Origin: Pelomonas sp. Root1237
Lineage (GTDB): Bacteria > Pseudomonadota > Gammaproteobacteria > Burkholderiales > Burkholderiaceae_C
Length of the DNA: 64,000 bases
Direction: 5' to 3'
NCBI RefSeq assembly: GCF_001425055.1
Contig: NZ_LMDK01000016.1
Location: forward strand, 657,803-721,802
Shown: positions 19,430 through 36,179 of the stretch, one piece after another
How the letters are laid out: each line of letters opens with the position of its first letter
Numbering within the stretch: position 1 is the first letter of the stretch
Translations under genes and position numbers: made by a program
The notes under the pieces: generated by a model
Seen by the model: only the letters and a program-made list of their open reading frames with translations
What the model was told of the DNA's origin: nothing
The model's database searches: none

Positions 19430-20077
19430 ATCATCGGTCAGGGTGCACCAGGTGCCGCCGCTGATTTGGGTGATATTGACCGAGATCAATCTTTCGCGAG
19501 CCAACAGGGGCAGATCAGCGCGCCAGCGAGGCTCGGGGTTGGGCCGGTAGACGAAGCCGGGCTGGTCGCACTCGATGGGCTCACGCCCAAAGGCGGCGAC
19601 GACCTCTGGGCCCACCTCGAAGGCCGCGGGGCCGATGCAGGCGCCCAGCCAGGCTTTCACTTCATGCGGCTCGCAGTTCGCGGCGTCGCAAAGCTCGGCC
19701 ACCGTGTTCTCCAGCACACCAGCCGCCAGGCCGCGCCAGCCGGCATGCGCGCCGGCCACACCGCCCGGCGCCGAGAACAGCACCGGCAGGCAGTCGGCGA
19801 CCAGGATGGCCACGGCCAGCTGGGGGTCGGTCGACACGGCTGCATCGGCCTTGGGCGCGTTGTCGTCGTGCCAGTCGGCGCGCAGGCGCACAACGTCGGC
19901 GCCATGAACCTGATCGAGAAAGACCGGCCGCGCGCCGAGCACCTCGGCGAGTCCGATGCGGTTGGCCTTGGCCAGTTCGGGGTCGCCCGCTTTGCGTCCG
20001 AAGTTGGGACCGCGAGTGGTCATGAAGGCCGTCACGCCCGGCCAATCCGGGCGCAGCCAGTTCGGATCAGGCTGCAT
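19349..20077 (-). CDS. pgeF: Peptidoglycan editing factor / purine nucleoside phosphorylase (YfiH, laccase-domain)
   Basis: A 242-residue YfiH/LACC1-family protein. Family residues are visible: DQVHGADVV, VADCLPVLF with the metal-binding Cys, GAHAGWRGLAAGVL with the active His, and ACIGPAAFEVG. Members phosphorolyse purine nucleosides, and in E. coli remove mis-incorporated L-Ser muropeptides. The ATG at 20077 lies 11 bp inside the end of maiA, so the two are translationally coupled. The gene end overlaps a convergent small membrane-protein gene. Confidence 0.9.
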   Translation of the reverse strand: MQPDPNWLRPDWPGVTAFMTTRGPNFGRKAGDPELAKANRIGLAEVLGARPVFLDQVHGADVVRLRADWHDDNAPKADAAVSTDPQLAVAILVADCLPVLFSAPGGVAGAHAGWRGLAAGVLENTVAELCDAANCEPHEVKAWLGACIGPAAFEVGPEVVAAFGREPIECDQPGFVYRPNPEPRWRADLPLLARERLISVNITQISGGTWCTLTDDSLFFSFRGEAVGRPRGRMAACISLRG

Positions 20078-22112: not shown

Positions 22113-22129
22113 GGCCGTTCACGCGCGGC

Positions 22130-22171
22130 TTGATCCAGCGCAAGGCCACCGGCAGTGCGCCGGCCTACGCT
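22130..22171 (+). promoter_or_regulatory. FNR-type activator box and -10 element
   Basis: TTGATCCAGCGCAA (22130-22143) has the perfect FNR left half-site TTGAT, an N4 spacer and a degenerate right half. Exactly 22 bp later is TACGCT (22166-22171), a -10-like hexamer, giving the class II geometry (box centred at -41.5). The predicted start is near 22178, 25 nt before a small ORF. The box lies in a 19-bp sequence repeated at 25575-25593. Confidence 0.65.
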
Positions 22172-22202
22172 GGACCTGACTTCAACAGGTCGGGAGGCCC
22201 CC

Positions 22203-22292
22203 ATGGTCATCAATGTCGGATCGGTGGAACCCGCACTCCGCCTGCTTGTGGGCCACGGCCCGGTGTACCGGCTGCCGGGATACCGGCCATGA
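22203..22292 (+). CDS. 29-residue small protein or leader peptide
   Basis: A short ORF (starting MVINVGSVEPALRLLVGHG) has a strong Shine-Dalgarno GGGAGG 5 nt before its ATG. Its TGA overlaps the ATG of the next gene in an ATGA junction. The downstream gene itself has only a weak ribosome-binding site, so its translation probably depends on this ORF. It is the first ORF of the transcript predicted from the FNR-type promoter. It has no signal peptide or membrane helix and no recognised family. Confidence 0.6.
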   Translation: MVINVGSVEPALRLLVGHGPVYRLPGYRP

Positions 22293-23677
22293 GCACGGAC
22301 GAGCTTCGACTGCGCTTCTTCGGCGCAACAGGCACCGTGACCGGTTCCCGCTACCTCGTCGAATTCGCCGGCCGGCGATTGCTCGTCGACTGCGGGCTGT
22401 TCCAGGGCCTGAAGCAGTTGCGCCTGCGCAATTGGGCCCCCTTCCCGGTGCCGGCGGCGTCCATCGATGCCGTGGTGATGACGCACGCCCATATCGATCA
22501 CAGCGGCTTCCTGCCCCGCCTGGTGGCGGAGGGCTTTCGCGGCTCCATCCACGCGACGCCTGGCACCAGCGACCTGCTGTCAGTGCTGTTGCCGGATTCG
22601 GGCCGGCTGCAGGAGGAGGACGCCCGCTACGCCAACCGGCACGGCTTCAGCAAGCATTCACCGGCGCTGCCGCTGTACACCGAGGCCCAGGCCCTGCACA
22701 GCCTCAAGCAGGTACGCCGGCACGCTTTCGGCCAAGTCTTCGAACCCGTCCCCGGCCTGACGGCAACGTTCAGCCATGCCGGCCACATCATTGGCGCCGC
22801 CAGCGTCCACCTCGCAACGGCTTCCAGCTCGATCACCTTCTCGGGCGACCTCGGCCGCAGTGACGACACCGTCATGCTGCCGCCAGCCGCGGCGCCCGCG
22901 GCCGACGTCGTTGTCATCGAGTCCACCTACGGCGATCGGCGGCACTCTCAAACGCCCAGCGCAGACCAGCTCTGCGACGTCATCTCGCGCACCGCCGCCC
23001 GCGGCGGCACGACGCTGATCCCGGCCTTCGCCGTCGGGCGGGCCCAGGCCATCCTGCACACCTTGCTGCGCCTGAAAGCCGCCGGGCGCATCGCCGACCT
23101 GCCCATCTACCTCAACAGCCCCATGGCCACGCAGGTCACGCGCCTGGTGCAGGTCCATGCTGATGAACACAGGCTGACCGAGCCTGAGCGCCGCGACCTC
23201 GTCGACAAGGTGCGCTACGTCCGCACGGAGGAGGAATCTCGTGCGCTGAACCGTCCCACCTATCCGAGCGTCATCGTCGCCGCCAGCGGCATGGCCACCG
23301 GCGGCCGCGTGCTGCACCACCTGGAAGCACTGGCGCCAGATCCCAGGAACAGCATCGTCTTCGTCGGCCATCAGGCCGCCGGCACGCGCGGCGCCACCCT
23401 GCTGGCCGGCGCCGACCGCATCCGCATGCACGGCCAGTGGGTGCCCGTGCGCGCCGAGGTGGCCGCCATCGACGGCATGTCCTCGCACGCCGACCAACCC
23501 CAGCTGCTGGCCTGGCTGCAAACGCTGCCGCACCCGCCCAGCCACGTCTACGTGACCCACGGCGAGCCCCAGGCCGCCGACGCGCTGCGCCAGGCTATCG
23601 AGGAAGGCCTGGGCTGGCCGGCCTCGGTACCCGAATACCTCGACGCCGTCCCGTCCAAGGAGTTGCCATGCCCATGA
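22289..23677 (+). CDS. MBL-fold beta-CASP nuclease (RNA-processing exonuclease family)
   Basis: A 462-residue metallo-beta-lactamase/beta-CASP protein of the YSH1/CPSF73-like bacterial family. The zinc motif is THAHIDHSG. Further motifs are TFSHAGHIIGAA, FSGDLGR, VVIESTYGDR at the start of the beta-CASP insert, VAASGMATGGRVLHHL and the C-terminal IDGMSSHADQ with its metal-binding His. Members are RNases or 5'-3' exonucleases. It is translationally coupled to the small ORF upstream (ATGA), and its last 10 bp overlap the alcohol dehydrogenase start. It lies in the FNR-box cluster. Confidence 0.92.
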   Translation: MSTDELRLRFFGATGTVTGSRYLVEFAGRRLLVDCGLFQGLKQLRLRNWAPFPVPAASIDAVVMTHAHIDHSGFLPRLVAEGFRGSIHATPGTSDLLSVLLPDSGRLQEEDARYANRHGFSKHSPALPLYTEAQALHSLKQVRRHAFGQVFEPVPGLTATFSHAGHIIGAASVHLATASSSITFSGDLGRSDDTVMLPPAAAPAADVVVIESTYGDRRHSQTPSADQLCDVISRTAARGGTTLIPAFAVGRAQAILHTLLRLKAAGRIADLPIYLNSPMATQVTRLVQVHADEHRLTEPERRDLVDKVRYVRTEEESRALNRPTYPSVIVAASGMATGGRVLHHLEALAPDPRNSIVFVGHQAAGTRGATLLAGADRIRMHGQWVPVRAEVAAIDGMSSHADQPQLLAWLQTLPHPPSHVYVTHGEPQAADALRQAIEEGLGWPASVPEYLDAVPSKELPCP

Positions 23678-24690
23678 TGAAAGCTGCGGTCGTCCGCGCT
23701 TACCGCGAGCCCCTCAGCCTGGAGGAAGTGGCCATCCCCGAAGTCCCCGCCGGGCAGGTCCTCGTGAAGGTGGCCGCCTGCGGCGTCTGCCATACCGACC
23801 TGCATGCCGCCGACGGCGACTGGCCGATCAAACCACCGCTGCCCTTCATTCCGGGCCACGAGGGCGTCGGCCATGTCGCCGCCGTCGGCGCGGGTGTGCG
23901 CGGCATCCGCGAAGGCGATCGCGTGGGCGTGCCCTGGCTGCACACCGCCTGTGGGCATTGCGAGCACTGCCTGACGGGCTGGGAGACGCTGTGCGACCAC
24001 CAGCAGATGACCGGCTACACGGTCAACGGCAGCTTCGCCGAATACGTGCTGGCCGATCCGGCCTATGTGGGCCATCTGCCCGACGGCCTGTCCTTCGAAT
24101 CCCTCGCGCCCATCCTGTGCGCCGGCGTGACGGTCTACAAGGGCCTGAAAGTACTGGACGCCCGGCCGGGGCAATGGGTGGCCGTCGTCGGCATCGGCGG
24201 TCTCGGGCACCTGGCCGTCCAGTACGCACGCGCGATGGGCTTTCACGTCGCAGCCGTGGACATCGATTCGGCCAAGCTGCAACTGGCCCAGCGGCTGGGC
24301 GCCGAGCTGTGCATCAACGCTGCCGATGAAGACCCGGCCGCCGCACTGCAGCGCGAACTGGGCGGTGTGCACGGCGCCCTCGTGACCGCCGTCTCGCGCC
24401 AGTCCTTCAGCCAGGCGCTGGGCATGCTGCGCAAGCGCGGCACCATGTCCATGGTCGGCCTGCCACCCGGCGACTTCGCGCTGCCGATCTTCGACGTCGT
24501 TCTCAATGCCAAGACCGTGCGCGGCTCCATCGTCGGCACGCGCCAGGACCTGAACGAAGCGCTGCAGTTCGCCGCGGACGGTGTCGTGCACGCCAGCACC
24601 ACCATGCACCGGCTGGACGATATCAACCGCATCTTCGACGACCTGCGCACGGGGCGCATCGATGGCCGGGCCGTGTTGAGCTTTGCCTGA
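23668..24690 (+). CDS. adhP: Zinc-dependent alcohol dehydrogenase (AdhP type)
   Basis: A 340-residue medium-chain dehydrogenase. The catalytic zinc site is seen in CGVCHTDLH and the GHEGVGHV histidine/glutamate. The structural zinc cysteines are in CGHCEHCLTGWETLC. The Rossmann motif is VVGIGGLGHLAVQYA. It interconverts primary alcohols and aldehydes with NAD(H), consistent with fermentative redox balancing in a low-oxygen cluster. AAGGAG precedes ATG 23668, which overlaps the upstream gene. The symbol is assigned by similarity to the AdhP family only. Confidence 0.9.
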   Translation: MPMMKAAVVRAYREPLSLEEVAIPEVPAGQVLVKVAACGVCHTDLHAADGDWPIKPPLPFIPGHEGVGHVAAVGAGVRGIREGDRVGVPWLHTACGHCEHCLTGWETLCDHQQMTGYTVNGSFAEYVLADPAYVGHLPDGLSFESLAPILCAGVTVYKGLKVLDARPGQWVAVVGIGGLGHLAVQYARAMGFHVAAVDIDSAKLQLAQRLGAELCINAADEDPAAALQRELGGVHGALVTAVSRQSFSQALGMLRKRGTMSMVGLPPGDFALPIFDVVLNAKTVRGSIVGTRQDLNEALQFAADGVVHASTTMHRLDDINRIFDDLRTGRIDGRAVLSFA

Positions 24691-24718
24691 CTTTTGCCTT
24701 CCCAAGGAGACGAATCCC

Positions 24719-25552
24719 ATGAGCTATCGCAGCCTGCTGGTTGCCCTGGACGCGACCCCGGCCAACCCGACGCGCGTCAGCATTGCCATCGCGCTGGCCA
24801 GGGAGTTCGAAGCCCACCTGATCGGCCTGGCGCCCAGCGCCACGGTCGAGCTGCAGGCGCTGCAGGCTGCCGCCGCGATGGACGACTACGTCAGTGGCGC
24901 CTGCGCGACCCTGCTCGCACAGGCCCAGGCCCTCGCGCAAAACTTCCACCAACGCTGCGGCGCTGCCGGGCTGCCCTCATTCGAGGCGCTCGCCGACCAG
25001 ACGCCCGCGGCGCAATCGCTGGCACGGCATTCGCAATGCACGGACCTGCTCATCATGAGCCAACCCGACCCGTCGCTGCCCGACCATCGCCAGCACGCGG
25101 CCGCGCTGGAACAGGTGCTGCTGCGCTGCGTGCGTCCGGTCCTGATGATCCCCTACACGCATCGCGAACCCCTGCGCACGCGTCGCGTGCTGCTGGCCTG
25201 GGACGGCAGCCGCGAGTCGGTGCGGGCGATGACGGACGCGCTGCCGCTGCTGCGCCGCGCCGACAACGTCTGGCTGATGCACTGGCGCCGAGACGCCGAA
25301 GGTGAAGCCCCGGCCGCGCGCCTCGCCTGCCAGCGCCAATGGCTGGCGCTGCAGGGCGTCGATGCCATCGTGCGCGAGGAAGTGACGGCACTGCCCATCG
25401 GCGACGCTCTGCTGAATGCGGCATCCGACACCGGGGCGGACCTGATCGTCATGGGTGCCTATGGCCACGCCCGCTGGGCGGAGCGGCTGTTCGGGGGTGT
25501 CTCCCGCAGGCTGCTGGCATCGATGACCGTGCCGGTGCTGATGTCGCATTGA
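24719..25552 (+). CDS. Tandem universal stress protein
   Basis: A 277-residue protein built of two UspA domains (about 3-145 and 153-277). The first opens with SLLVALDATP, the second with RVLLAWDGSRES. The second keeps the ATP-binding signature GAYGHARWAERLFGGVS and ends TVPVLMSH; the first is degenerate at this motif. Tandem Usp proteins accumulate during growth arrest or oxygen limitation. AAGGAGAC lies before ATG 24719; the gap from adhP is 28 bp, so both probably share the upstream FNR-type promoter. Confidence 0.92.
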   Translation: MSYRSLLVALDATPANPTRVSIAIALAREFEAHLIGLAPSATVELQALQAAAAMDDYVSGACATLLAQAQALAQNFHQRCGAAGLPSFEALADQTPAAQSLARHSQCTDLLIMSQPDPSLPDHRQHAAALEQVLLRCVRPVLMIPYTHREPLRTRRVLLAWDGSRESVRAMTDALPLLRRADNVWLMHWRRDAEGEAPAARLACQRQWLALQGVDAIVREEVTALPIGDALLNAASDTGADLIVMGAYGHARWAERLFGGVSRRLLASMTVPVLMSH

Positions 25553-25576
25553 TCCCCCGCAGCATCCCGCGCTGGC

Positions 25577-25590
25577 TTGATCCAGCGCAA
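25577..25590 (+). promoter_or_regulatory. FNR-type box, second copy
   Basis: TTGATCCAGCGCAA is identical to the box at 22130 and shares 19 bp of surrounding sequence. It also sits inside a perfect 7-bp inverted repeat (GCGCTGG / CCAGCGC, 25569-25588) whose loop is CTTGAT. Its centre is 41.5 bp upstream of the ATG at 25625. The expected -10 region is poor (GAGGAT) and overlaps a Shine-Dalgarno-like GAGGA, so its exact role is unclear. Confidence 0.55.
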
Positions 25591-25624
25591 GGGCCGGGCT
25601 GCGGGCGGTGGCGAGGATGCGCTC

Positions 25625-28297
25625 ATGACCCAGCGCCATCTCGATCGCCTGCTCACGCCCGACTCGGTAGCCGTCTTCGGCGCCTCCGACAAGCCCGGCC
25701 GCGTCGGCACCACCGTCTGGCGCAACCTGCTGAGCGGCGGCTTCAAGGGCCCGATGGCGGCCGTGAACCCGCGGCTGGACAGGCTGGACGGCCAGCCCTG
25801 CTTTGCCGGCGTCGCCGAGCTGCCGTTCACGCCGGACCTGGCCGTGCTGTGCACGCCACCGGACACCATCGCGCCGCTGGTCGGGCAGCTGGGTGTGCGC
25901 GGCACTCGGGCCGCCATCATCGTGACGGCGGGCCTCACACCAGCGCAGAAGCAGGCGGCGCTGGACGCCGCCCGGCCGCACACGCTGCGCCTGCTGGGGC
26001 CCAACTGCATCGGCCTGCTGAGCCCGCACCTCGGGCTGAACGCCAGCTTCACCCAGGCGAAAGCGCTGCCCGGCGAGCTGGCGCTGGTGTCCCAGTCGGG
26101 CGCATTGCTGACGGCCCTGCTGGATTGGGCCAACGCCGAGCGCATCGGCTTCTCGCACCTCGTCTCGCTGGGCGAGCACGCCGACGTCGACTTCGCCGAC
26201 CTGCTGGACCATCTGGCCACGGACCGGCATACGCGCGCCATCCTGCTCTACATCGAATCCATCACATCGCCACGCAAGTTCATGTCGGCAGCGCGTGCCG
26301 CGGCCCGCATCAAGCCCGTCATCGTCGTCAAGGCCGGCCGCGCGCCGGCCGGCATGAAGGCCGCCGCCTCACACACGGGCGCGCTGGCGGGCGAGGACAT
26401 CGTCTTCGACGCCGCCATCCGCCGCGCCGGCATGCTGCGCGTGGACACGCTGAAGGATCTCTTCATCGCCGCGCAGACGCTCGCGCGCTTTCGTGACAAC
26501 CACAGCCGCGAGCTGATGGTCATGACCAATGGCGGCGGCGCGGGCGTGATGGTGGCCGACGCCGCCGCGCCGCTGGGCGTGACGCTGGCGCGCCCGGGCG
26601 AGGCGCTGATGAAGCGGCTCAACGCCGTGCTGCCGGCCAACTGGTCGCACGGCAACCCGATCGACATCATTGGCGACGCGCCCGCGCAGCGCTACGTGGA
26701 CACGCTCAAGGCCCTGTTCGACGCCCCCGAGGCGGGCGCGGTGCTGTTCGTGCACGCACCGACGGCCATCGTCTCCAGTGAAGCCATCGCCCGGGCATGC
26801 GCCCCACTGATCGCCGAGCACCGGGGCCGTGTGCTGAGCTGCTGGCTGGGCGGTGACACGGTGGCGCCGGCGCGCAGCGCTTTCGAAGAGGCCGGCATCG
26901 CGGGCTACGAGACGCCCGAGGAGGCCGTGCGCGCGTTCTCGCTGATGCAGACCTACCGGCGCAACCAGACGGCACTACGCCAAACGCCAAGCGCCGGCGC
27001 GAACGGCAAGCCGGACCTGGCACGGGCGCGCGCCATCATCGACGCCGCGCTGGGCGCTGGCCGTGAATGGCTGGACGAGATCGATGCCAAGGCACTGCTG
27101 GCTGCCTATGGCATCGCGGTCGTGCCGACGTTGCGCGCCGAAGCCTCGCCACAGGCCGCCGCCGAGGCCGCCCAGCGCATCGACGGGCCGGTGGTGCTGA
27201 AGGTGGTGTCCCCGGCCATCCTGCACAAGTCGGACGCCGGTGGCGTGCGCCTGGACCTGCGCGGCGAAGCCGCCGTGCGCCTGGCCGCACAGGAGATGCT
27301 CGATCATCTGCAAGCCACGCGTCCGGAAGCCCACATCGAGGGATTCAGCGTGCAGGCCATGGTGCAACGGCCCCGCGCCCAGGAGCTCATCGTCGGCGCG
27401 CACGTGGATCAGATCTTCGGCCCGGTGCTGCTGTTCGGCCAGGGCGGCATCGCGGTGGAAGTGCTGGGCGACCGCGCCGTGGCGCTGCCGCCGTTGAACC
27501 GCGCGCTGGCACGCGAGCTGATCGACCGCACCCGGGTGGCCCGGCTGCTGGCCGGCTATCGCGGGCGGCCGCCGGCCCACATCGACGCCTTGTGCGACGC
27601 GCTGACCGCCGTCGGGCAGATGCTGGCCGATCTGCCCGAAATGGCCGAGCTGGACATCAACCCGCTGCTGGCCGACGAGCACGGCGTGCTCGCGCTGGAT
27701 GCCCGCGTGCGCCTGTCGGCGTCGGCACCCTCCGGCATGGCGCGCTTCGCCGTGCGCCCCTACCCGGCAGAGCTGGTGCGAACTCTGCACTGCCAAGGCA
27801 GCACGCTGCTGATGCGACCGATCCGGCCCGAGGACGAGGCCTTGCATCGCGAGTTCCTGCAGGCCTGCAGCCCCGAAGACCTGCGCATGCGCTTCTTCCA
27901 GGCGCCGCACGCGCTGACGCATGACGACCTCGCCCGGATGACGCAGATCGACTACGAGCGCGAGATGGCGCTCGTCATCGTCGATGAGCAGGCCGCTGGC
28001 GGCCCCCGCACGCTCGGCGTGGCCCGTCTCGTGCGCGATCCCGACAACGTCGAGGCGGAGTTCGGCCTGCTGGTGCGCAGCGACCTGCAGCGCCGGGGCC
28101 TCGGCCGCCTGCTGATGCAGGCCCTGCTCGACTACGCCGCCTCGCGCGGCACGCAGCGCGTCGTCGGCCACGTGCTGCGCGAGAACCGGGCGATGCTGAA
28201 CCTGCTCAAACGCATGGGTTTTGACGTCAGGCCGGGCGGTGCCCAGCCGTCGGAGATCGTCCTCGTCAGCCGAGCCTCGGGCTGCAACGGCTCATGA
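25625..28297 (+). CDS. Acyl-CoA synthetase (NDP-forming) / GNAT acetyltransferase fusion (Pat-like)
   Basis: An 890-residue protein with the domain order of Pat/PatZ lysine acetyltransferases. The CoA-binding domain (about 5-100: SVAVFGASDKPGRVGTT) and succinyl-CoA-ligase-like alpha part come first, then an ATP-grasp beta part (about 480-700: VVLKVVSPAILHKSDAGGV, MVQRPRAQELIVGA). The GNAT domain is C-terminal (about 735-885), with the acetyl-CoA loop QRRGLGRLL. The alpha part keeps the SHTGALAG motif with its histidine, so synthetase activity may survive. Possible roles are acetyl-CoA/acetate conversion or protein acetylation in energy-poor cells. The ATG at 25625 follows GAGGA at 7-nt spacing. 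Confidence 0.92.
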   Translation: MTQRHLDRLLTPDSVAVFGASDKPGRVGTTVWRNLLSGGFKGPMAAVNPRLDRLDGQPCFAGVAELPFTPDLAVLCTPPDTIAPLVGQLGVRGTRAAIIVTAGLTPAQKQAALDAARPHTLRLLGPNCIGLLSPHLGLNASFTQAKALPGELALVSQSGALLTALLDWANAERIGFSHLVSLGEHADVDFADLLDHLATDRHTRAILLYIESITSPRKFMSAARAAARIKPVIVVKAGRAPAGMKAAASHTGALAGEDIVFDAAIRRAGMLRVDTLKDLFIAAQTLARFRDNHSRELMVMTNGGGAGVMVADAAAPLGVTLARPGEALMKRLNAVLPANWSHGNPIDIIGDAPAQRYVDTLKALFDAPEAGAVLFVHAPTAIVSSEAIARACAPLIAEHRGRVLSCWLGGDTVAPARSAFEEAGIAGYETPEEAVRAFSLMQTYRRNQTALRQTPSAGANGKPDLARARAIIDAALGAGREWLDEIDAKALLAAYGIAVVPTLRAEASPQAAAEAAQRIDGPVVLKVVSPAILHKSDAGGVRLDLRGEAAVRLAAQEMLDHLQATRPEAHIEGFSVQAMVQRPRAQELIVGAHVDQIFGPVLLFGQGGIAVEVLGDRAVALPPLNRALARELIDRTRVARLLAGYRGRPPAHIDALCDALTAVGQMLADLPEMAELDINPLLADEHGVLALDARVRLSASAPSGMARFAVRPYPAELVRTLHCQGSTLLMRPIRPEDEALHREFLQACSPEDLRMRFFQAPHALTHDDLARMTQIDYEREMALVIVDEQAAGGPRTLGVARLVRDPDNVEAEFGLLVRSDLQRRGLGRLLMQALLDYAASRGTQRVVGHVLRENRAMLNLLKRMGFDVRPGGAQPSEIVLVSRASGCNGS

Positions 28298-28318
28298 CGA
28301 CGGACCAAGCGCAGCTCC

Positions 28319-28813
28319 TCAAGCCAGGCTGATAACCAGCGCCGCCTGCAGGATCTTGCGCCGCTTGATGGCCCACGCGACGTCGCCGTCCAGTGCCTGT
28401 GCGAGCACGGCCGTGGGATGGCCGGCGGTCGCCAGCCCGGCGAACACAGGAATGTCGGCGCTGCGGGCCAGGCGCCCTGTCAGGGCGGCGGGCAGGTGCT
28501 GACATTCAACCGCGTCGTAGAGACGGCTCAGCATGCGTGCCGTTGCATCGACCCGCCATGGGCTGCTGTGCTCGTCAAGCCCGGGCTGGACAAAGGACAC
28601 ATGGGCACCGAGCGCCGTCGCCGCCTGCGCGAATTCGCTCCCCTCGTCGTCCTCCGGGTGCGGCGACATCAGCGCCAGCCGCCTGCCCGTCAACGGCTTC
28701 ATCTCCGAGGCCTGCAGCCTCAAGAGCACCCTCGCCTGCCGCAGCACGGCAGCGGCGTCGACGGGGTAGGAAGAAGTGGCGCCAGCGGCGCCTTGGCGAG
28801 CCTCGGAACACAT
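28319..28813 (-). CDS. Standalone ornithine-carbamoyltransferase-like N-domain protein
   Basis: A 164-residue protein resembling only the carbamoyl-phosphate-binding half of ornithine carbamoyltransferases. Shared stretches are LTGRRLAL, AATALGAHVSFV, DATARMLSRLYDAVEC, SADIPVFAGL and HPTAVLAQAL. The substrate-binding STRTR segment is replaced by PEDDEG, and the ornithine domain is absent, so catalysis is unlikely. The first ATG (28813) was chosen; upstream in-frame starts are TTG/GTG and would run across an FNR-type dyad. It converges on the synthetase/GNAT gene with a 21-bp gap. Family assignment is by eye and is an inference. Confidence 0.65.
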   Translation of the reverse strand: MCSEARQGAAGATSSYPVDAAAVLRQARVLLRLQASEMKPLTGRRLALMSPHPEDDEGSEFAQAATALGAHVSFVQPGLDEHSSPWRVDATARMLSRLYDAVECQHLPAALTGRLARSADIPVFAGLATAGHPTAVLAQALDGDVAWAIKRRKILQAALVISLA

Positions 28814-28820
28814 GAGTGGC

Positions 28821-28861
28821 AGCGTATCGACGCCAACTGCGCGGCCATTGACCAAGGTCAA
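28821..28861 (-). promoter_or_regulatory. FNR-type dyad and -10 element before the carbamoyltransferase-like gene
   Basis: TTGACCAAGGTCAA (28848-28861) is an inverted repeat with TTGAC-N4-GTCAA arms, an FNR/DNR-type site. On the minus strand the -10-like TACGCT (28826-28821) follows after 21 bp, the same hexamer as at 22166. The predicted start is at about 28814, adjacent to the ATG, which suggests a leaderless or nearly leaderless transcript. Confidence 0.62.
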
Positions 28862-29013
28862 GCCGGCAGAGTCCGGCTCGGTGTTGAGAGGCTCCGTCAC
28901 CAACGGTTCACGCAGTGTTTACGCACCGCTACCCAGCGATGTCGCGTGTTGACACGTCATTGGCGGGGCCTGCCTAGCATCGATTTCTTCGAGCAGCCCC
29001 AATGGAGACCCTC

Positions 29014-29793
29014 ATGCACGCCAGTCCCTCGCATACCCCGCACCCTGCCGTGCGTTGCAGCACCGCTTTCGCCGCCAACGGCGCGATCCATGCCAGCGCC
29101 GCGCCGACCAAGGGGCAGCGCATCGCTGACGAGCTGAAGCTGCTGGAGGCCGTGCTGGCGCCCAGGCGCCGCATCGTCCATGCCGGCGATGTGCTGTACC
29201 GGCCGGGCGAGCGGTTCGAGCAGCTGCACGTGCTGAACTCCGGCTGCTTCAAGCTGATCAGCCCGTCGGCCGAGGGCCACGAGCAGGTCGTCGGGCTGAA
29301 GTTCCGCGGCGACTGGCTCGGCTTCAGCGCCATCGCCAAGGGCAGCTACGCCTGCGAAGCCATTGCGATGGACACCGCCGAGGTCTGGACGCTGCGCTAC
29401 GACGCACTGCTGAAGGCCTGCGCCGACCATCCCCGCCTGATGGCCACCGTGCACGAGGCCATGAGCGACGAAATCATGCGCGAACGCGAGGCGCTGACGG
29501 CCCTGTGCGCGCTGCCGGCCGCCGCGCGCGTGGTGACCTTTCTGCACAACTGGGCCGATTCCCTGGCCGCGCGCGGCCTCAGGACCGACCAGATCAGCCT
29601 GCGCCTGACGCGCGCCGAGATCGGCAACTACCTCGGCCTGACGCTGGAGACCGTCAGCCGCGTGCTGTCCAGGCTCGCGCGAGCGCGGCTCATCGCCTTT
29701 CACGAGAAGAGCCGGCGCGACATCTGCATTCCCGACTTCCCCGCCCTGGCCGCCTTCATCGGTGGGCAGGCCGCTCCTGCCGGTCTGCACTAG
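29014..29793 (+). CDS. Crp/Fnr family transcriptional regulator
   Basis: A 259-residue regulator with a cyclic-nucleotide-binding-like N-terminal fold (about 45-160) and a winged helix (about 190-250). The recognition helix TLETVSRVLSRL keeps the Glu-x-x-Ser-Arg triad by which FNR reads TTGAT. The cysteine cluster that binds the FNR iron-sulfur centre is missing at the N terminus, so the sensing mechanism must differ (DNR- or FixK-like). ATG 29014 has GGAG at 6-nt spacing; ATG 29002 is an in-frame alternative. It lies next to three FNR-type boxes, so it is the obvious candidate regulator of the cluster. Confidence 0.92.
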   Translation: MHASPSHTPHPAVRCSTAFAANGAIHASAAPTKGQRIADELKLLEAVLAPRRRIVHAGDVLYRPGERFEQLHVLNSGCFKLISPSAEGHEQVVGLKFRGDWLGFSAIAKGSYACEAIAMDTAEVWTLRYDALLKACADHPRLMATVHEAMSDEIMREREALTALCALPAAARVVTFLHNWADSLAARGLRTDQISLRLTRAEIGNYLGLTLETVSRVLSRLARARLIAFHEKSRRDICIPDFPALAAFIGGQAAPAGLH

Positions 29794-29840
29794 GCGGCGC
29801 GTCGGCCTCGGCGGCCGCGCATCGATCCAGGGAGAAAAAA

Positions 29841-32800
29841 ATGAATTCACCGCATCAGGACGCCGTCGCACCGCCTCTTCGCTTCGCCAGCGGGGGCTTC
29901 GGCCGGCACTTCGACCTCTGGCGGCGCCGGCTGGCGCCGACCGCTCCGCTGACCATGGCCGCGGCTTACGCGGCCTTTGGCCTTGCCTGGATCCTGCTGT
30001 CTGATGGACTGCTGGAAAAGCTGGCGCCCGACATCGCCACGCTGTCCGCCGTTGGCCAGGGCAAGGGCATCGCCTTCGTGCTGGCGACCAGCGCGCTGAT
30101 CTATGTGATCACCCCCAGCCGGCAAGCCGAGGGCGAGGCGACCGGACCGGCGCGTCAGGGCGGACCGGTCAGCGTGCTCTGGGTGTTCGCCCTGCTGTCA
30201 GCCGCCATCGTGCTGGCAAGCCTGCTGGGCTATGCCAGATCGACTCACATGTCGCATGAACAGCAGGTTGCGCAGTTGCGCCGCGAAGCCGAGCTGAAAG
30301 CCGAGATCGTCCAGGGCTGGATCGAGCGGCGCACGGAGGACGCACGCCGGCTTGCCACCGACCCCCAGTTGCGCACCAGCCTGCTGCGCTGGCGCCGCAG
30401 CCCCGATGAGGCATTGGCGGCAGAGATGAGGAAGGAACTGCTGTTGCTGCTGACTTCCACGCACTACGCCGACGCATTGCTGTTCGACGAACACGCCCGG
30501 CTGCTGCTGGCGCCGGACGGCGCCCCGCGGCATGTCGATGCGGCCATGTCGCATGGCGTGCGTTCGGCCCTGCAAGGCGGGCGGGTGTCTGGCGGCGACT
30601 TCCGGGCCGAGGTGGGCGACCCCGCCAGCCTGCAGTTCGACCTCTTCGTGCCACTGCCCAGCGCGGACGGCCGGCCCGGGACCGTCTTGCTGCTGCGCAC
30701 AGCGCCGCGCCTCACGCTGCTGCCGCAGCTGACTCCGGGCTCCGCCAGTGACGCTCCCGAGACGCTGTTCTTCCGCCCCGCCGCACGGGATCTGCTGGCC
30801 TTGCGCATCGACGGCTCCGACACCCCGTTCGTCCCTCCGCGCAACTCCTCCCGCGCGGCGCTGACCGCCTTGTCCGGCGATCCGTCGCTGGCCGGTTCGC
30901 TCATGGACGGCCTGGATCGCGGCGAAGTTGCCCAGGCCGCGGTGGCGGCCCGGATTCGCAACTCCGGCTGGTATGTCGCCATCCAGGCGCCGCGCGATGC
31001 GCTGCTGGGCGGCAGCATCGCCGATGCGACGACGCTGGCTCTGGTGAACTTGCTGGCCGTGCTGGCCGCGGGCGCCTTCACCTGCGCTGCGCTGAAGCGG
31101 CGCGAACTGCAGGCAGCCGCACGCATGGCGGTGGCAAGCCAGGACGAGGCGCGGGCCTGGAAGATCGCCGAGGCGATCGCCAACTGTTCGACCGACGTCA
31201 TCTTCGCCAAGGATCTCGAGGGCCGCTACCTGTTCGTGAACCGCGCGCTGTGCCGGGCGCTGGGGCGCAGTTCGGAGCAACTGATCGGCTTCGATTCCAC
31301 GGGCCTGTTCCCAGCCGAGCAGGTGCGCCAGCTGCTCAAAGACGACGCGGCTGCACTGCGGGCCGACAAGCCAGTCTGCGTCCAGACGCGCCTGACGATG
31401 CCGGACGGCGACCGCATCTACGCCTGCACCAAGGGCAAGCTGATCGATGACGAAGGCCGCACGCTGGGCATCTACAGCGTCTCCAGCGACATCACCGAGC
31501 GCCACGACATGCAGCAGCGCATGCGCCAGTGGGCCACGGTCTTCGAGGACATCCGCGACGGCGTCATCATCACCGACTCACGGGGCCGCATCCAGTCGAT
31601 CAACCACTCGTTCACGACCATCACCGGCTACAACGCGCAAGAGGCCATCGGCGCCAGCCTGAAGCTGCTGAAGTCCGGCCGGCACGACGCGGAGTTCTAT
31701 CAGAGGATGTGGGCCGCGCTCGATGCCAGCGGGCACTGGCAGGGTGAGATCTGGAACCGCCGCAAGGGCGGCGAGGTCTATCCGGAATGGCTGACCATCA
31801 GCGCGGTGCGCGACGACGACGCGACGGTCACGCACTACGTCGGCGTGTTCACCGACATCAGCCGCCTCAAGCACAGCGAGGCCCAGACCGACTGGCTGGT
31901 CCACAACGACCCACTGACACGCCTGCCCAACCGCGTTCAACTGCAGAGGCGGCTCGAAGATGCGCTGGCCCGCTCGCACCGGCGCGAGAGCCGCGCGGCG
32001 CTGCTGGTCATCGATCTCGATGGCTTCAAGACGGTCAACGACGGCCTGGGGCACCCGGCCGGCGACGAATTGCTGGTCTGTGTGGCCGCGCGCCTGCAGG
32101 CGCGCCTGCGCCATGAGGACTTCCTGGGCCGGCTCGGCGGCGATGAGTTCCTGGTCATCCTCGAAGCCAACATGGACAGCACCAGCGTTGCCGTGCTCGC
32201 GCGCGGCCTGCTGGCGACCATCGCCGCGCCGATGGCGCTGTCGTGTGGGCAGGATGCCTACCTGACGGCCAGCATCGGCATCAGCATGTTCCCCGACGAA
32301 GGCAACCCCACCGCGGTCGAGTTGCTGCGTGACGCGGATGCGGCGATGAATCGCGCCAAGGAATTGGGCCGCAACCAGTTCTGCTTCTATACGGATGACA
32401 TGAATGCCGAGGCCCGGACCAAGCTGGACCTGGAAGCCGCACTGAGCCGCGCCATCGAACGCGACGAGCTGCTGCTGCACTACCAGCCCAAGGTGGCTGC
32501 CAGCAGCGGCGAAGTCGTCGGCGCCGAGGCCCTGTTGCGCTGGCAGCGCAGCAGCATCGGACTGGTACCACCGAGCCAGTTCATCCCGGTGGCCGAGCAG
32601 AGCAGCCTGATCCTGGCCATCGGCGGCTGGGTCATCGACGCAGCATGCCGCCAGATCCGCGCCTGGATGGACGCCGGCCGACCCATCGTGCGCGTGGCGG
32701 TCAACGTCGCGGCGCGGCAGTTCGCCGCAGGTGACCTGGACCAGGTGGTGGCCCGCGCGCTGCAGCGCCACCAGGTCGACGCGCAGTGGCTGGAGATCGA

Positions 32801-33206
32801 GATCACCGAAGGCATGCTGATCACCGAGCCTGGCGCCGCGATCGGCATGCTCAAGCGGATCAAGGCCCTCGGGGTCAAGCTGTCGCTGGACGACTTTGGC
32901 ACCGGTTACTCCAGCCTGGCCTACCTGCAGCAGTTCCCGATCGACTCGCTGAAAATCGACCAATCTTTCACGCGCCGCATCGGCGAGCAGCCCGACGGCG
33001 CGGCCCTGGTCGATGCCGTGATTGCACTGGCTCACCGGCTGCATCTGCGCGTGGTGGCCGAGGGCGTCGAAACCGCACAGCAACGCGACTACCTGTGCGA
33101 GCGCGGCTGCGACGAGATGCAGGGGTATCACTTCGGCCGCCCGGCACCGGCCGAATCGCTGCAGCACCTGTTGGCCACCGAAGCAATCGCGGCGAGCGTG
33201 CCTTGA
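29841..33206 (+). CDS. Membrane PAS-PAS-GGDEF-EAL c-di-GMP enzyme
   Basis: A 1121-residue protein. Three membrane helices lie near the N terminus (about 35-55, 72-91, 110-128), then an extracytoplasmic sensor region to about 390 and another helix (LALVNLLAVLAAGAFTCAAL). Two PAS domains follow (about 440-680). The GGDEF domain keeps GGDEF and an RxxD inhibitory site (RHED five residues before), and the EAL domain keeps EALLRW, the ITEGML glutamate, DDFGTGYSSL and AEGVE. It may make and degrade c-di-GMP. GGGAG precedes the ATG. It is 47 bp after the Crp/Fnr gene and probably co-transcribed. Confidence 0.94.
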   Translation: MNSPHQDAVAPPLRFASGGFGRHFDLWRRRLAPTAPLTMAAAYAAFGLAWILLSDGLLEKLAPDIATLSAVGQGKGIAFVLATSALIYVITPSRQAEGEATGPARQGGPVSVLWVFALLSAAIVLASLLGYARSTHMSHEQQVAQLRREAELKAEIVQGWIERRTEDARRLATDPQLRTSLLRWRRSPDEALAAEMRKELLLLLTSTHYADALLFDEHARLLLAPDGAPRHVDAAMSHGVRSALQGGRVSGGDFRAEVGDPASLQFDLFVPLPSADGRPGTVLLLRTAPRLTLLPQLTPGSASDAPETLFFRPAARDLLALRIDGSDTPFVPPRNSSRAALTALSGDPSLAGSLMDGLDRGEVAQAAVAARIRNSGWYVAIQAPRDALLGGSIADATTLALVNLLAVLAAGAFTCAALKRRELQAAARMAVASQDEARAWKIAEAIANCSTDVIFAKDLEGRYLFVNRALCRALGRSSEQLIGFDSTGLFPAEQVRQLLKDDAAALRADKPVCVQTRLTMPDGDRIYACTKGKLIDDEGRTLGIYSVSSDITERHDMQQRMRQWATVFEDIRDGVIITDSRGRIQSINHSFTTITGYNAQEAIGASLKLLKSGRHDAEFYQRMWAALDASGHWQGEIWNRRKGGEVYPEWLTISAVRDDDATVTHYVGVFTDISRLKHSEAQTDWLVHNDPLTRLPNRVQLQRRLEDALARSHRRESRAALLVIDLDGFKTVNDGLGHPAGDELLVCVAARLQARLRHEDFLGRLGGDEFLVILEANMDSTSVAVLARGLLATIAAPMALSCGQDAYLTASIGISMFPDEGNPTAVELLRDADAAMNRAKELGRNQFCFYTDDMNAEARTKLDLEAALSRAIERDELLLHYQPKVAASSGEVVGAEALLRWQRSSIGLVPPSQFIPVAEQSSLILAIGGWVIDAACRQIRAWMDAGRPIVRVAVNVAARQFAAGDLDQVVARALQRHQVDAQWLEIEITEGMLITEPGAAIGMLKRIKALGVKLSLDDFGTGYSSLAYLQQFPIDSLKIDQSFTRRIGEQPDGAALVDAVIALAHRLHLRVVAEGVETAQQRDYLCERGCDEMQGYHFGRPAPAESLQHLLATEAIAASVP

Positions 33207-33348: not shown

Positions 33349-35412
33349 CTAGGCCAACAGCACGCGGGCCATCGCCTGCGCCAGCTGGCCGCGGCTGTAG
33401 GGCTTGGGCAGCAGTTCCCAGTCCGCCGGGGACTCGCGGTCGGCATCCAGCAGTTCGGCGGAGAAGCCCGACATCAACAGGATGGCCAGCTGCGGCAGCC
33501 GCTGCTGCGCGATGCGGGCGAGCTCGGTGCCGCGCATGCCGGCGCCCAATGCAATGTCGGTGAGCAGCAGGTCGAAATCGGCTTCAGGCGTCAGCAGTTG
33601 CAGCGCCTGCTCGGCACTGGAACAGACGCTGAACACGCAACCCAGGCTGGCCAGGAAGTGCTGCGCCACGGCGCGCACCTCGGCGTCGTCTTCGACCACC
33701 AGCACTTTCAGCCCCGCGGGCACCGTGTGCCCGACGTGGTCGCCGTCCTGGGCCCCCGTCTGGGCATCGTGTGGCACCGGCAGATACAGGCTGATCGTCG
33801 TGCCAAGGCCGGCCGTGCTGTCCAGCGCGACGGCGCCCTGCGACTGCTTGACGAAGCCATAGACGGCACTCAGCCCCAGGCCCGTGCCGCGGCCGGCCTG
33901 TTTGGTCGTGAAGAAGGGCTCGAAGGCACGCTCCTTGACGGCCTCAGGCATGCCTGTGCCGGTGTCGGTGACGGCGATGCGGACGAACCGGCCTTCGCCG
34001 AGCTCGTCCTGCAGGCCCGTCGGCAGCATGCCCGCGGCCGCCGCGGAAAAACGCAGATCGCCGCCGTCGAGCATCGCGTCGCGCGCATTGATCGCGATGT
34101 TGAGCAGGGCAGCTTCCAACTGGCCCGCGTCGGCCAGCGCCAGGGGGCAGTCCGGCGCGACATCGACGCTGATGCGGATGCGTTGGTCCAATGTGCGACG
34201 CAGCATGTCCGACAGCGGGTGCAGCAGGCCATGCACGTCGACCGCGCTGGGCTGCAGCACCTGGCGGCGCGAGAAGGCCAGCAGCTTGCCGGTCAGCTCC
34301 GCGCCGCGCTTGGATGCGCGCATCGCGGCGCTCACCAGTTGCAGGGCGCCACCGTCCTGCGCCAGTGCCGGCAGCTCCTCCAGCACCTGCAGATTGCCTT
34401 GGATGACGGTCAGCAGGTTGTTGAAGTCGTGGGCAATGCCGCCCGTCAGCTGGCCAACACTTTCGAGGCGCTGGGCATGGCTCAGCGCCTCCTCGGTCTG
34501 CGCCCGCTGCAGGCAGGTGACCAGCAGATTGGCCAGTGACTCAAGGAAGCGCTGTTCATCGTCGCCGAACCGCTTCGACTGGCGGGAACGAACCTTCAAG
34601 GCGCCAATGACGCGGCCGCGGTCCAGCAGCGGCACCGCCAATGCGCTGACCAACCCTGCCGCGAGATAGTCGGGGGGCACCGCATAGCGTTGTTCTGCGC
34701 GGAAATCCTCGATCACGACCGATTGCCCCTGGCTCAGCACGACGCCCAGCGGCGTGTCGCCGCGATTGGGCACGATGCAACCCAGCGACTCGCCGGCGAT
34801 CAGGCCCACGCCCCCGGCGACGCGCAGTTCAAGCCGGTTGCTTTCCAGCAGGAACACCAGCGCCATCTCGACTTCCAGCGCCTCGGCGGCGATGGCCGGT
34901 ACCTGCTGCAACAGCTGCTGCGGATCGCGTGCGTCGACGGCCAGGCGGCCCAGCTGCGCCAGATGCTCGCTATAGCGCGCCCGCTGCAACGCCTGTTTGA
35001 CGCGCGGATAGCCACCGATGCCGCGGATCGCGGCAACCACGAAGGGCAGGCCGTGGTCTTGCAAAGGGCTCAGCGCGATTTCCACCATCACCTCGCTGCC
35101 GTCGCGCCGCCGGGCTACCAGCTCCATCTGCGTGCCCATCGGCCGAGCGCGCGGCGCGTGACCGTAGGCCTGCCGGTATGACGCGTGGCGAGGGCGAATG
35201 CTGTCGGGCACCAGTTCGTCCACGCTCGTGCCGACGAGCTCCTCCATCGAGTACCCCAGCAGCGCCGCCGCCGCGGGGTTGGCTCGGGCGATCAGGCCTG
35301 CGGCGTCCACCAGCAGCAGGGCGTCCGGATAGGCGGAAAACAGCGAGCGGTAGACGGTCAGGTCATCGACGGGCTGCGGCGTCGGCTGGTTGGCGGGAGG
35401 CGTTCCAACCAT
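33349..35412 (-). CDS. Hybrid sensor histidine kinase (PAS-GAF-HisKA-HATPase-REC)
   Basis: A 687-residue soluble hybrid kinase. PAS (about 20-130), GAF (about 160-310), an H-box [16 protein letters not shown], ATPase boxes [18 protein letters not shown] and [13 protein letters not shown], and a C-terminal receiver whose Asp is in LLLTDIALG. The HDFNN H-box defines the NtrB-like HPK4 group. No membrane helix is seen, so the signal is cytoplasmic. Its ATG overlaps the stop of the upstream response regulator gene (TGATG), which makes that regulator its likely partner. The 142 bp after the stop (33207-33348) show nothing recognisable. Confidence 0.93.
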
Positions 35413-36179
35413 CAGGTTTTCGCCCGTGCGGAGCCGATGGGCGGAACGAAGATGTAGCCGGCGCCGCGGACCGACTTGATGATCTGTGGATTCTCCGCAT
35501 CGACTTCCAGCTTCTTGCGCAGGCGTCCGATCTGCACGTCGATCGTGCGGTCAAAGGGCGCAGCTTCGCGGCCCCGCGTCTGTTCAAGCAGAAAGTCGCG
35601 GGACAGCACGCGACCCGCATGCTGGGCCAGGGCCGCGAGGAGGGAGAACTCGCCGCTGGTGAGCCGCACCTCTGCGCCGTTCGGATCGTCAAGGCGCCGG
35701 GCGCCCAGGTCGAGCTGCCAGCCGAGAAATGTCAGGTGCTCGCCACCCGAGGCACTGGCCACCTGCCGGGGCGCCTGCCCGCTGGCCGGCTGGCCGGAGG
35801 CCAACGGGTGCGGCTCCATGCGCCGCAACACGGCCTTGATGCGCGCGACCAGCTCGCGCAGGTCGAAAGGCTTGGTGACGTAGTCATCGGCGCCAACTTC
35901 CAGGCCCACGACCTTGTCGACCGAGTCCCCGCGGCCGGTGATGATGACCAGGCCGCAGCGCCAGTGCTCGCGCAGCTGCCGTGCGATGGCGAAGCCGTCC
36001 TCTCCGGGCAGGCCCAGATCCAGCAGCACCAGCTCGGGCGGATCGCTGGCCATCAGCTCCATCAGCGCACGGCCCGAATGCAATTGCGTCGTGCGAAAGC
36101 CGTGCCCAGGCAGATAGCGGCCGAGCAGCTCGGTGATCGCTGTTTCGTCATCGACAACGGCAATATGCTGAAGCGTCAC
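35412..36179 (-). CDS. OmpR-family response regulator
   Basis: A 255-residue two-domain regulator. The receiver (1-120) has the acidic pair VVDDE, the phospho-acceptor Asp in VLLDLGLPGEDG and KPFDLREL. An unusually long Ala/Gln/Ser-rich linker (about 125-145) leads to a winged helix (about 150-245) with the signature DRTIDVQIGRLRKKLE and VRGAGYIF. It is coupled to the hybrid kinase downstream (TGATG overlap). A 16-bp palindrome about 50 bp upstream could be its autoregulatory site. Confidence 0.94.
   Translation of the reverse strand: MTLQHIAVVDDETAITELLGRYLPGHGFRTTQLHSGRALMELMASDPPELVLLDLGLPGEDGFAIARQLREHWRCGLVIITGRGDSVDKVVGLEVGADDYVTKPFDLRELVARIKAVLRRMEPHPLASGQPASGQAPRQVASASGGEHLTFLGWQLDLGARRLDDPNGAEVRLTSGEFSLLAALAQHAGRVLSRDFLLEQTRGREAAPFDRTIDVQIGRLRKKLEVDAENPQIIKSVRGAGYIFVPPIGSARAKT

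Follow-up and report, generated by a model that had tools for sequence, protein, structure and literature searches.

A probable hFixL-FxkR-FixK-like relay in Pelomonas sp. Root1237, with a Cys-less FNR-lineage regulator and a carbamoyltransferase-derived pseudo-enzyme

A 64,000-nucleotide stretch of the genome of Pelomonas sp. Root1237 (contig NZ_LMDK01000016.1, positions 657,803 to 721,802; hereafter the window) encodes a regulator of FNR lineage, P0001, that has no ligands for an iron-sulfur (Fe-S) cluster, together with a divergent gene for a protein resembling ornithine carbamoyltransferase (OTC), a hybrid histidine kinase, and an OmpR-type response regulator (Table 1). We conclude that this locus is probably a low-oxygen relay that works like the hFixL-FxkR-FixK pathway of rhizobia, the role of oxygen being throughout an inference from sequence. 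In the proposed order of events, (i) the kinase would sense oxygen through a PAS domain resembling those of FixL and DosP and phosphorylate the adjacent response regulator; (ii) the response regulator would bind a tandem K-box centred near -61, an operator recognized by promoter comparison, and turn on the regulator gene; and (iii) the regulator, acting by its amount, would bind TTGA-N6-TCAA sites, likewise recognized by comparison, and serve as class II activator of the OTC-like gene. The promoters of the beta-CASP/adh/usp and acyl-CoA synthetase genes are probably further targets, which it would share with the Fe-S FNR of the cell. On our best reading, an FNR-derived protein occupies the position of FixK, and a dead carbamoyltransferase derivative is its most conserved target.

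The regulator, the OTC-like protein, and the response regulator occur as a set. Among the 20 genomes compared within the genus (19 relatives and the 6.43-Mb genome that contains the window, G000), 17 encode all three, and the same three genomes, G005, G011, and G017 (completeness 95%, 83%, and 91%, respectively), lack all three. Outside the genus, the response regulator was matched at 45-57% identity in 5 of 40 genomes, and in 4 of 40 the OTC-like profile found weaker matches, possibly true OTCs. We also inspected 80 loci from named genomes, which are the best 80 of 193 regulator relatives and hence the nearer kin. Of these loci, 74 have the divergent OTC-like gene next to the regulator, 66 have the kinase next, and 62 the response regulator; where there was room of 9.5 kb or more (59 loci), both of the latter two genes were present in 49. 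Relatives of the other genes considered here (beta-CASP, 15; adh, 16; usp, 21; acyl-CoA synthetase, 14) were in view at fewer loci, and these genes are outside the conserved core. A PAS-GGDEF-EAL protein is encoded between regulator and kinase in the window; at some genus loci a match to it occupies that place, at others none does.

A preliminary description of this DNA presented P0001 as the FNR-type regulator of a low-oxygen survival system. The recognition-helix triad on which that description drew is genuine, with Glu, Ser, and Arg in 80/80 relatives; an FNR-type oxygen sensor is not supported, as the N-terminal triplet CX2CX5C occurs in 0/80 relatives (P0001 itself has a single N-terminal Cys), and position 129, which corresponds to the fourth FNR ligand, C122, is Trp in 78/80 and Leu in 2/80. 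An FNR with both Cys motifs (CASCNLRELC) and the same recognition triad as P0001 is encoded elsewhere in the genome (G000:C16:288214). On these two grounds, the missing ligands and the motif-bearing FNR, P0001 was rejected as a local Fe-S FNR: a protein that has an FNR recognition helix but no Cys ligands cannot on that account be taken to sense oxygen. In a tree of 40 rows, a Cys-less clade of 24 rows (99/97) stands apart from 13 Fe-S FNRs; one Cys-less row from another family, L019, is placed, weakly supported, next to the Fe-S FNRs.

The promoter of the regulator gene was compared over 81 regions (the 80 loci and the window), each taken as the 560 bp upstream of regulator codon 39. A 36-nt tandem-repeat motif, approximately TTCACC-N4-GTTACC with a further upstream half, is found in 80 of them; after removal of near-copies, its scores in 77 real regions had a median of 40.9, as against a shuffled maximum of -1.3, and within the window only 28906 and the shifted register 28895 scored above 8. 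Relative to start sites predicted from TANNNT, the motif is centred at -61 in 59 of the 81 regions, at -60 in 2, and at -71 or -72 in 11, the remainder having no hexamer (8) or no motif (1). In rhizobia, the K-box bound by FxkR is GTTACA-N4-GTTACA and lies at -62 of fixK (fixK9a, fixK9b) (PMC7888657, here and below in excerpt). A strict form of the present motif, TTYACNNANNGTTACSNA, occurs 10 times in the 20 whole genomes, each time directly upstream of the regulator or its paralogue. By eye, GTTACC-N4-GTTACA can be seen upstream of a regulator, kinase, and response regulator set in the same order in G040, a genome of another family in which the OTC-like protein had no match. The paralogue in the window's own genome is a second Cys-less regulator (L043, G000:C2:142735-144050), 57% identical to P0001 and with its own divergent OTC-like gene; its locus has a K-box scoring 44.9 and CTGACGCAGATCAA, and a search of 10 kb there gave no kinase or response regulator like those of the window.

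On the opposite strand, towards the OTC-like gene, the TTGAC-N4-GTCAA dyad previously pointed out at 28848 is indeed present (TTGACCAAGGTCAA, 28848-28861). The form TTGA-N6-TCAA occurs twice in the window, with 0.31 expected and two reached in 3 of 100 shuffles, and is found in 68 of the 81 regions; among palindromes built alike, the second most frequent is found in 24. A TANNNT hexamer lies 21 bp past the dyad in 61 of these 68 regions, 22 bp past it in 5, and at neither distance in 2; reduction at 85% identity leaves 60 regions, divided 53, 5, and 2, and in 0/60 does TANNNT stand at 21-22 bp on the regulator side. Across the regions, each of the three fixed letters of TANNNT holds about 2 bits. 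The class II activator geometry attributed to this site is thus borne out by 66 of the 68 dyad regions. The window's other TTGA-N6-TCAA dyad (19476-19489) lies inside an open reading frame (ORF) with the unconfirmed label pgeF; it is kept in the closest relative and is probably due to chance.

The profile and fold of the OTC-like protein lead to OTC, with a catabolic OTC as the best match in the PDB, and its AlphaFold model has a mean predicted local distance difference test score (pLDDT) of 89.2. The family profile aligns with OTC domain 1, skips domain 2, and resumes at the last helix, so that the window protein resembles catabolic OTC in domain 1 and the C-terminal helix and differs from it in having no domain 2. 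Across 46 OTC-like proteins (45 of 48 non-redundant rows plus that of the window), the carbamoyl-phosphate motif STRTR is present in 0/46, unlike in catabolic OTC, and the Gln of HPTQ is retained in 1/46. With both motifs missing, carbamoyltransferase activity is unlikely, and the possibility of an active enzyme was rejected. Some relatives are longer (233-271 amino acids); in two that were scanned, Pfam gave the N-terminal domain alone, with no domain 2. Residue 104 of the window protein (28502-28504, minus strand) is a Cys, as is its counterpart in 90% or more of the 46; the best OTC match has Tyr there.

Comparison with Rhizobium leguminosarum Rlv3841, whose genes were taken from pRL9 and named by the Table 1 coordinates of PMC7888657, supplies the model for the relay. 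When hFixL9 was used as a query against the genome, the window kinase came first, at 289.5 bits vs 207 for the next match, with 47% identity across kinase and receiver; the response regulator is 46.6% identical to FxkR9. The two systems are alike in having (i) a hybrid kinase with a FixL-like PAS domain and a receiver, (ii) a response regulator other than a FixJ homologue, (iii) a K-box before the regulator gene, at about -61 here and -62 there, and (iv) an FNR-family regulator without a Cys cluster, directed at anaerobox-type targets (PMC7888657). In Rlv3841, moreover, an adhP beside fxkR9 is 61% identical to the adh gene of the window. They differ in that P0001 stands apart from the two rhizobial FixKs compared, Met replaces the distal Arg of FixL in window-type kinases, the K-box of the window family reads TTCACC-N4-GTTACC, and the pseudo-OTC is the most conserved output here; a GAF domain, moreover, is present in the window kinase, the one of the two kinases whose domains were scanned. 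We rate the parallel as strong in the case of the kinase and the operator, and as fair in that of the response regulator. Because the regulator lies outside the FixK group and the distal Arg is missing, we do not class the window system as a member of hFixL-FxkR-FixK. Among the papers listed by the literature searches, none has a title or abstract opening that puts the hFixL-FxkR pathway in Roseateles, Variovorax, or their relatives, although other papers may do so.

Two identical 14-bp boxes that had been described upstream of the beta-CASP/adh/usp genes and of the acyl-CoA synthetase gene are present (TTGATCCAGCGCAA, 22130-22143 and 25577-25590), as is the 19-bp sequence that they share, which we read as GGCTTGATCCAGCGCAAGG. 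They are the only two matches to TTGATN4CGCAA in the window, where 0.07 is expected. The -10 hexamers described with them also stand, TACGCT lying 22 bp past the 22130 box and, on the minus strand, 21 bp past the 28848 dyad. At the acyl-CoA synthetase gene the box is 48-49 bp upstream of the start in four rows (the window, L062, L071, and L067), and TANNNT at 20-24 bp past the box was found in 0/15 rows. The supposed tandem Usp protein has a single Usp domain matched by Pfam, in the second half of its 277 amino acids. A 29-codon ORF (22203-22291) with a good Shine-Dalgarno sequence overlaps the beta-CASP start (ATGA) and has a counterpart in the closest relative, L062.

The wider occurrence of these boxes was followed in two ways. 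Genome-wide, TTGATN4CGCAA occurs 15 times in the 6.43 Mb, against 1 for the reversed control and a scaled window-shuffle mean of about 7. The reversed pattern itself holds TAG and makes a poor null, and the shuffle mean is about half of the observed count, so that these counts are weak or uninformative and the enrichment of the loose pattern, taken alone, is modest. The exact 14-mer has six copies in the genome, all six upstream of a predicted gene; three lie outside every flagged ORF, and the other three (22130, 25577, and L040) lie within mechanical ORFs that we read as over-extended or spurious. Before related genes elsewhere, with near-copies removed, a box drawn from a family of five related patterns, for which mono-nucleotide shuffles expect at most 0.06, precedes 9/12 beta-CASP, 11/25 usp, 6/15 acyl-CoA synthetase, and 1/8 adh genes, and TANNNT follows it at 20-24 bp in 4, 7, 0, and 1 of these, respectively. 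The co-occurrence that was to be sought in related genomes is partly seen: some of the beta-CASP, usp, and acyl-CoA synthetase genes there have a box, and one adh gene in eight. A chance origin of the boxes was considered and rejected on the window and shuffle counts, the conservation of the dyad, the recurrence before relatives, and the -10 spacing. The genes behind the other TTGATN4CGCAA sites of the genome include those for OmpW, DksA-type, flavodoxin-fold, cupredoxin/cytochrome c, and hemerythrin proteins; they plausibly form a low-oxygen regulon, and the window genes fit low oxygen as originally suggested.

At four FNR-type promoters of the genome (25577-25627, 28811-28861, L040, and L033) an ATG begins 34 nt past the box, which is the +1 position of a class II promoter, making leaderless mRNA likely at all four. 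Box-to-ATG spacings of 24-44 nt in the 20 genomes gave 82 matches, with 34 nt 18 times and 35 nt 7 times. Of 22 matches inspected, 16 have GACGCT in common with the L040 hemerythrin promoter and so may represent one gene. The other peak, 26 nt (19 times), is often the -10 hexamer TAGCAT itself.

Which protein reads the 22130 and 25577 boxes bears directly on the reach of the relay. We regard it as almost an even chance that they are read mainly by the Fe-S FNR and that P0001 mainly serves the OTC-like gene. The genus genomes that lack the regulator still contain TTGATN4CGCAA (10 in G005, 10 in G017, and 4 in G011, with 5-20 in the other 17 genomes), so that an Fe-S FNR is a sufficient reader, and in G005 a promoter, whichever gene it may serve, agrees with that of the L040 hemerythrin in both the 14-mer and the CGCGACGCT. 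The genome's Fe-S FNR may accordingly read both window boxes. However, the two proteins share the recognition triad, so both may bind, and at 5/16 genus loci a single 20-kb stretch holds both the regulator and the acyl-CoA synthetase gene. Nor do the half-sites of the OTC dyads separate two specificities, since the preference for TTGAC is slight (66 C, 51 T, and 3 G among 120 at the fifth base).

Several observations weigh against the relay as proposed. The K-box model was trained on the same regions that it scores; applied to the K-boxes of G040 and Rhizobium it gave scores below 0 and detected neither. The strict form of the motif is missing from 7 regulator-bearing genomes, and the window's own copy deviates from it, the genome's match being that of the paralogue. 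The dyad is absent from 13 of the 81 regions, and in 10 of the 59 roomy loci kinase and response regulator are not downstream of the regulator. With FxkR9 as the query, a different response regulator of the genome came first (212.5 vs 208.8 bits), and no grouping of P0001 with rhizobial FixK was seen in the tree, which held two FixK rows (fixK9a/b) and in which there were long branches. The kinase contributes further points of this kind: the best match of its PAS domain is an unnamed multi-sensor kinase, 10jx (2.5e-17), its GAF domain could carry another signal, and at the position that we take to be the distal Arg of FixL the 64 aligned kinases have Met (57), Thr (5), Leu (1), or a gap (1). 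With that Arg replaced, binding of heme and O2 by the PAS domain is not assured. These same features would fit a kinase that senses something other than O2 (nitric oxide, redox, or another PAS or GAF ligand) in a relay not devoted to oxygen. We think this unlikely: FixL and DosP chains are the next PAS matches, at 3e-14 to 2e-10, the residue aligned with what we take to be the proximal heme His of FixL is His in 64/64 kinases that cover it (5 of 69 matches do not), and the outputs are FNR-box genes.

Less likely still is that P0001 does some sensing of its own, by means of Cys118 and Cys169 (redox) or of another ligand, with both its amount and its activity controlled. Cys118 is found in 80/80 relatives, Cys169 in 79/80, and Cys140 in 71/80; Cys118 is, however, also present in the canonical FNR of the genome and so may be structural. 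That P0001 is an oxygen-sensing FNR running the cluster alone is very improbable: the Glu-Ser-Arg helix, the FNR-type regulators that are its best PDB matches (9e-29), and the class II spacing are all as expected of an FNR, but the Cys ligands are gone and the motif-bearing FNR is encoded elsewhere.

Table 1. Features of the window discussed in the text. Several mechanical ORF starts extend beyond the likely true starts.
Feature	Position	Strand	Remarks
FNR-type box TTGATCCAGCGCAA before beta-CASP/adh/usp genes	22130..22143	+	Box with TANNNT at 22 bp also before L062, L071 relatives
-10 hexamer TACGCT	22166..22171	+	22 bp past box
Beta-CASP/RMMBL metallo-hydrolase	22289..23677	+	Pfam Beta-Casp 1.6e-32, RMMBL 2.3e-18
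Zinc alcohol dehydrogenase, AdhP type (adh)	23668..24690	+	NCBIfam AdhP 358 bits (cut-off 344)
Universal stress protein (usp), 277 amino acids	24719..25552	+	Pfam Usp 1.9e-15, second half
Second FNR-type box TTGATCCAGCGCAA, before acyl-CoA synthetase/GNAT	25577..25590	+	ATG starts 34 nt past box
Weak -10 candidate GAGGAT	25613..25618	+	22 bp past 25577 box; GACGAT in L062, L071, L067
Acyl-CoA synthetase (NDP-forming) fused to GNAT	25625..28297	+	Pfam
OTC-like pseudo-enzyme, 164 amino acids	28319..28813	-	OTC domain 1 and C-terminal helix
-10 hexamer TACGCT of OTC-like gene	28821..28826	-	
FNR-type dyad TTGACCAAGGTCAA	28848..28861	-	Class II position for OTC-like gene
K-box-like tandem repeats GTTCACGCAGT GTTTACGCACC GCTACC	28906..28933	+	Before regulator
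Predicted -10 hexamer TAGCAT of regulator gene	28975..28980	+	
Cys-less FNR-lineage regulator P0001	29002..29793	+	Start may be 29014
PAS-GGDEF-EAL protein, mechanical ORF	29505..33206	+	True start probably downstream of 29793
Hybrid histidine kinase PAS-GAF-HisKA-HATPase-REC, hFixL-like	33349..35412	-	
OmpR-type response regulator (Trans_reg_C), FxkR-like	35412..36179	-	

The proposed hFixL-FxkR-FixK-like relay can also be set beside systems nearer to hand. The FixLJ-fixK system of the Burkholderia cepacia complex is likewise a low-oxygen two-component system that induces fixK in Burkholderiales; its FixJ has a LuxR-type DNA-binding domain, in contrast to the OmpR-type response regulator of the window (PMC5234846, in excerpt). 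FNR and Anr share with P0001 the domains, the recognition helix, the TTGA-type boxes, and the class II geometry, and differ from it by their Fe-S ligands. The lxa locus of B. cenocepacia, of about 50 genes, resembles the window in its Usp-rich gene set, which is up at low oxygen (excerpts of PMC6127331, PMC9733578, PMC3759415, and PMC9104464). A more detailed account, which we offer tentatively and toward which we lean less than halfway, is that of a FixK-type relay of the Burkholderiales whose last step was built independently: a duplicated FNR would have lost its Fe-S cluster and gained a dedicated K-box and an hFixL/FxkR-like pair, and its most conserved output would be a new regulatory protein, a catabolic carbamoyltransferase by origin but dead and short of a domain, that binds a partner (e.g., a true carbamoyltransferase) rather than catalysing.

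If the relay is as proposed, the logic of hFixL-FxkR-FixK would extend from rhizobia to Burkholderiales of soil, plants, and water; the genera among the regulator relatives include Roseateles, Variovorax, Rhizobacter, Piscinibacter, and others. It would also suggest a route by which an FNR, once its sensor is lost, becomes a FixK-like part. The analysis further brings to light a pseudo-enzyme that is widespread and whose FNR-type promoter is strikingly conserved. Finally, it corrects a tempting annotation, in which an FNR helix without Cys ligands is taken for an oxygen sensor.

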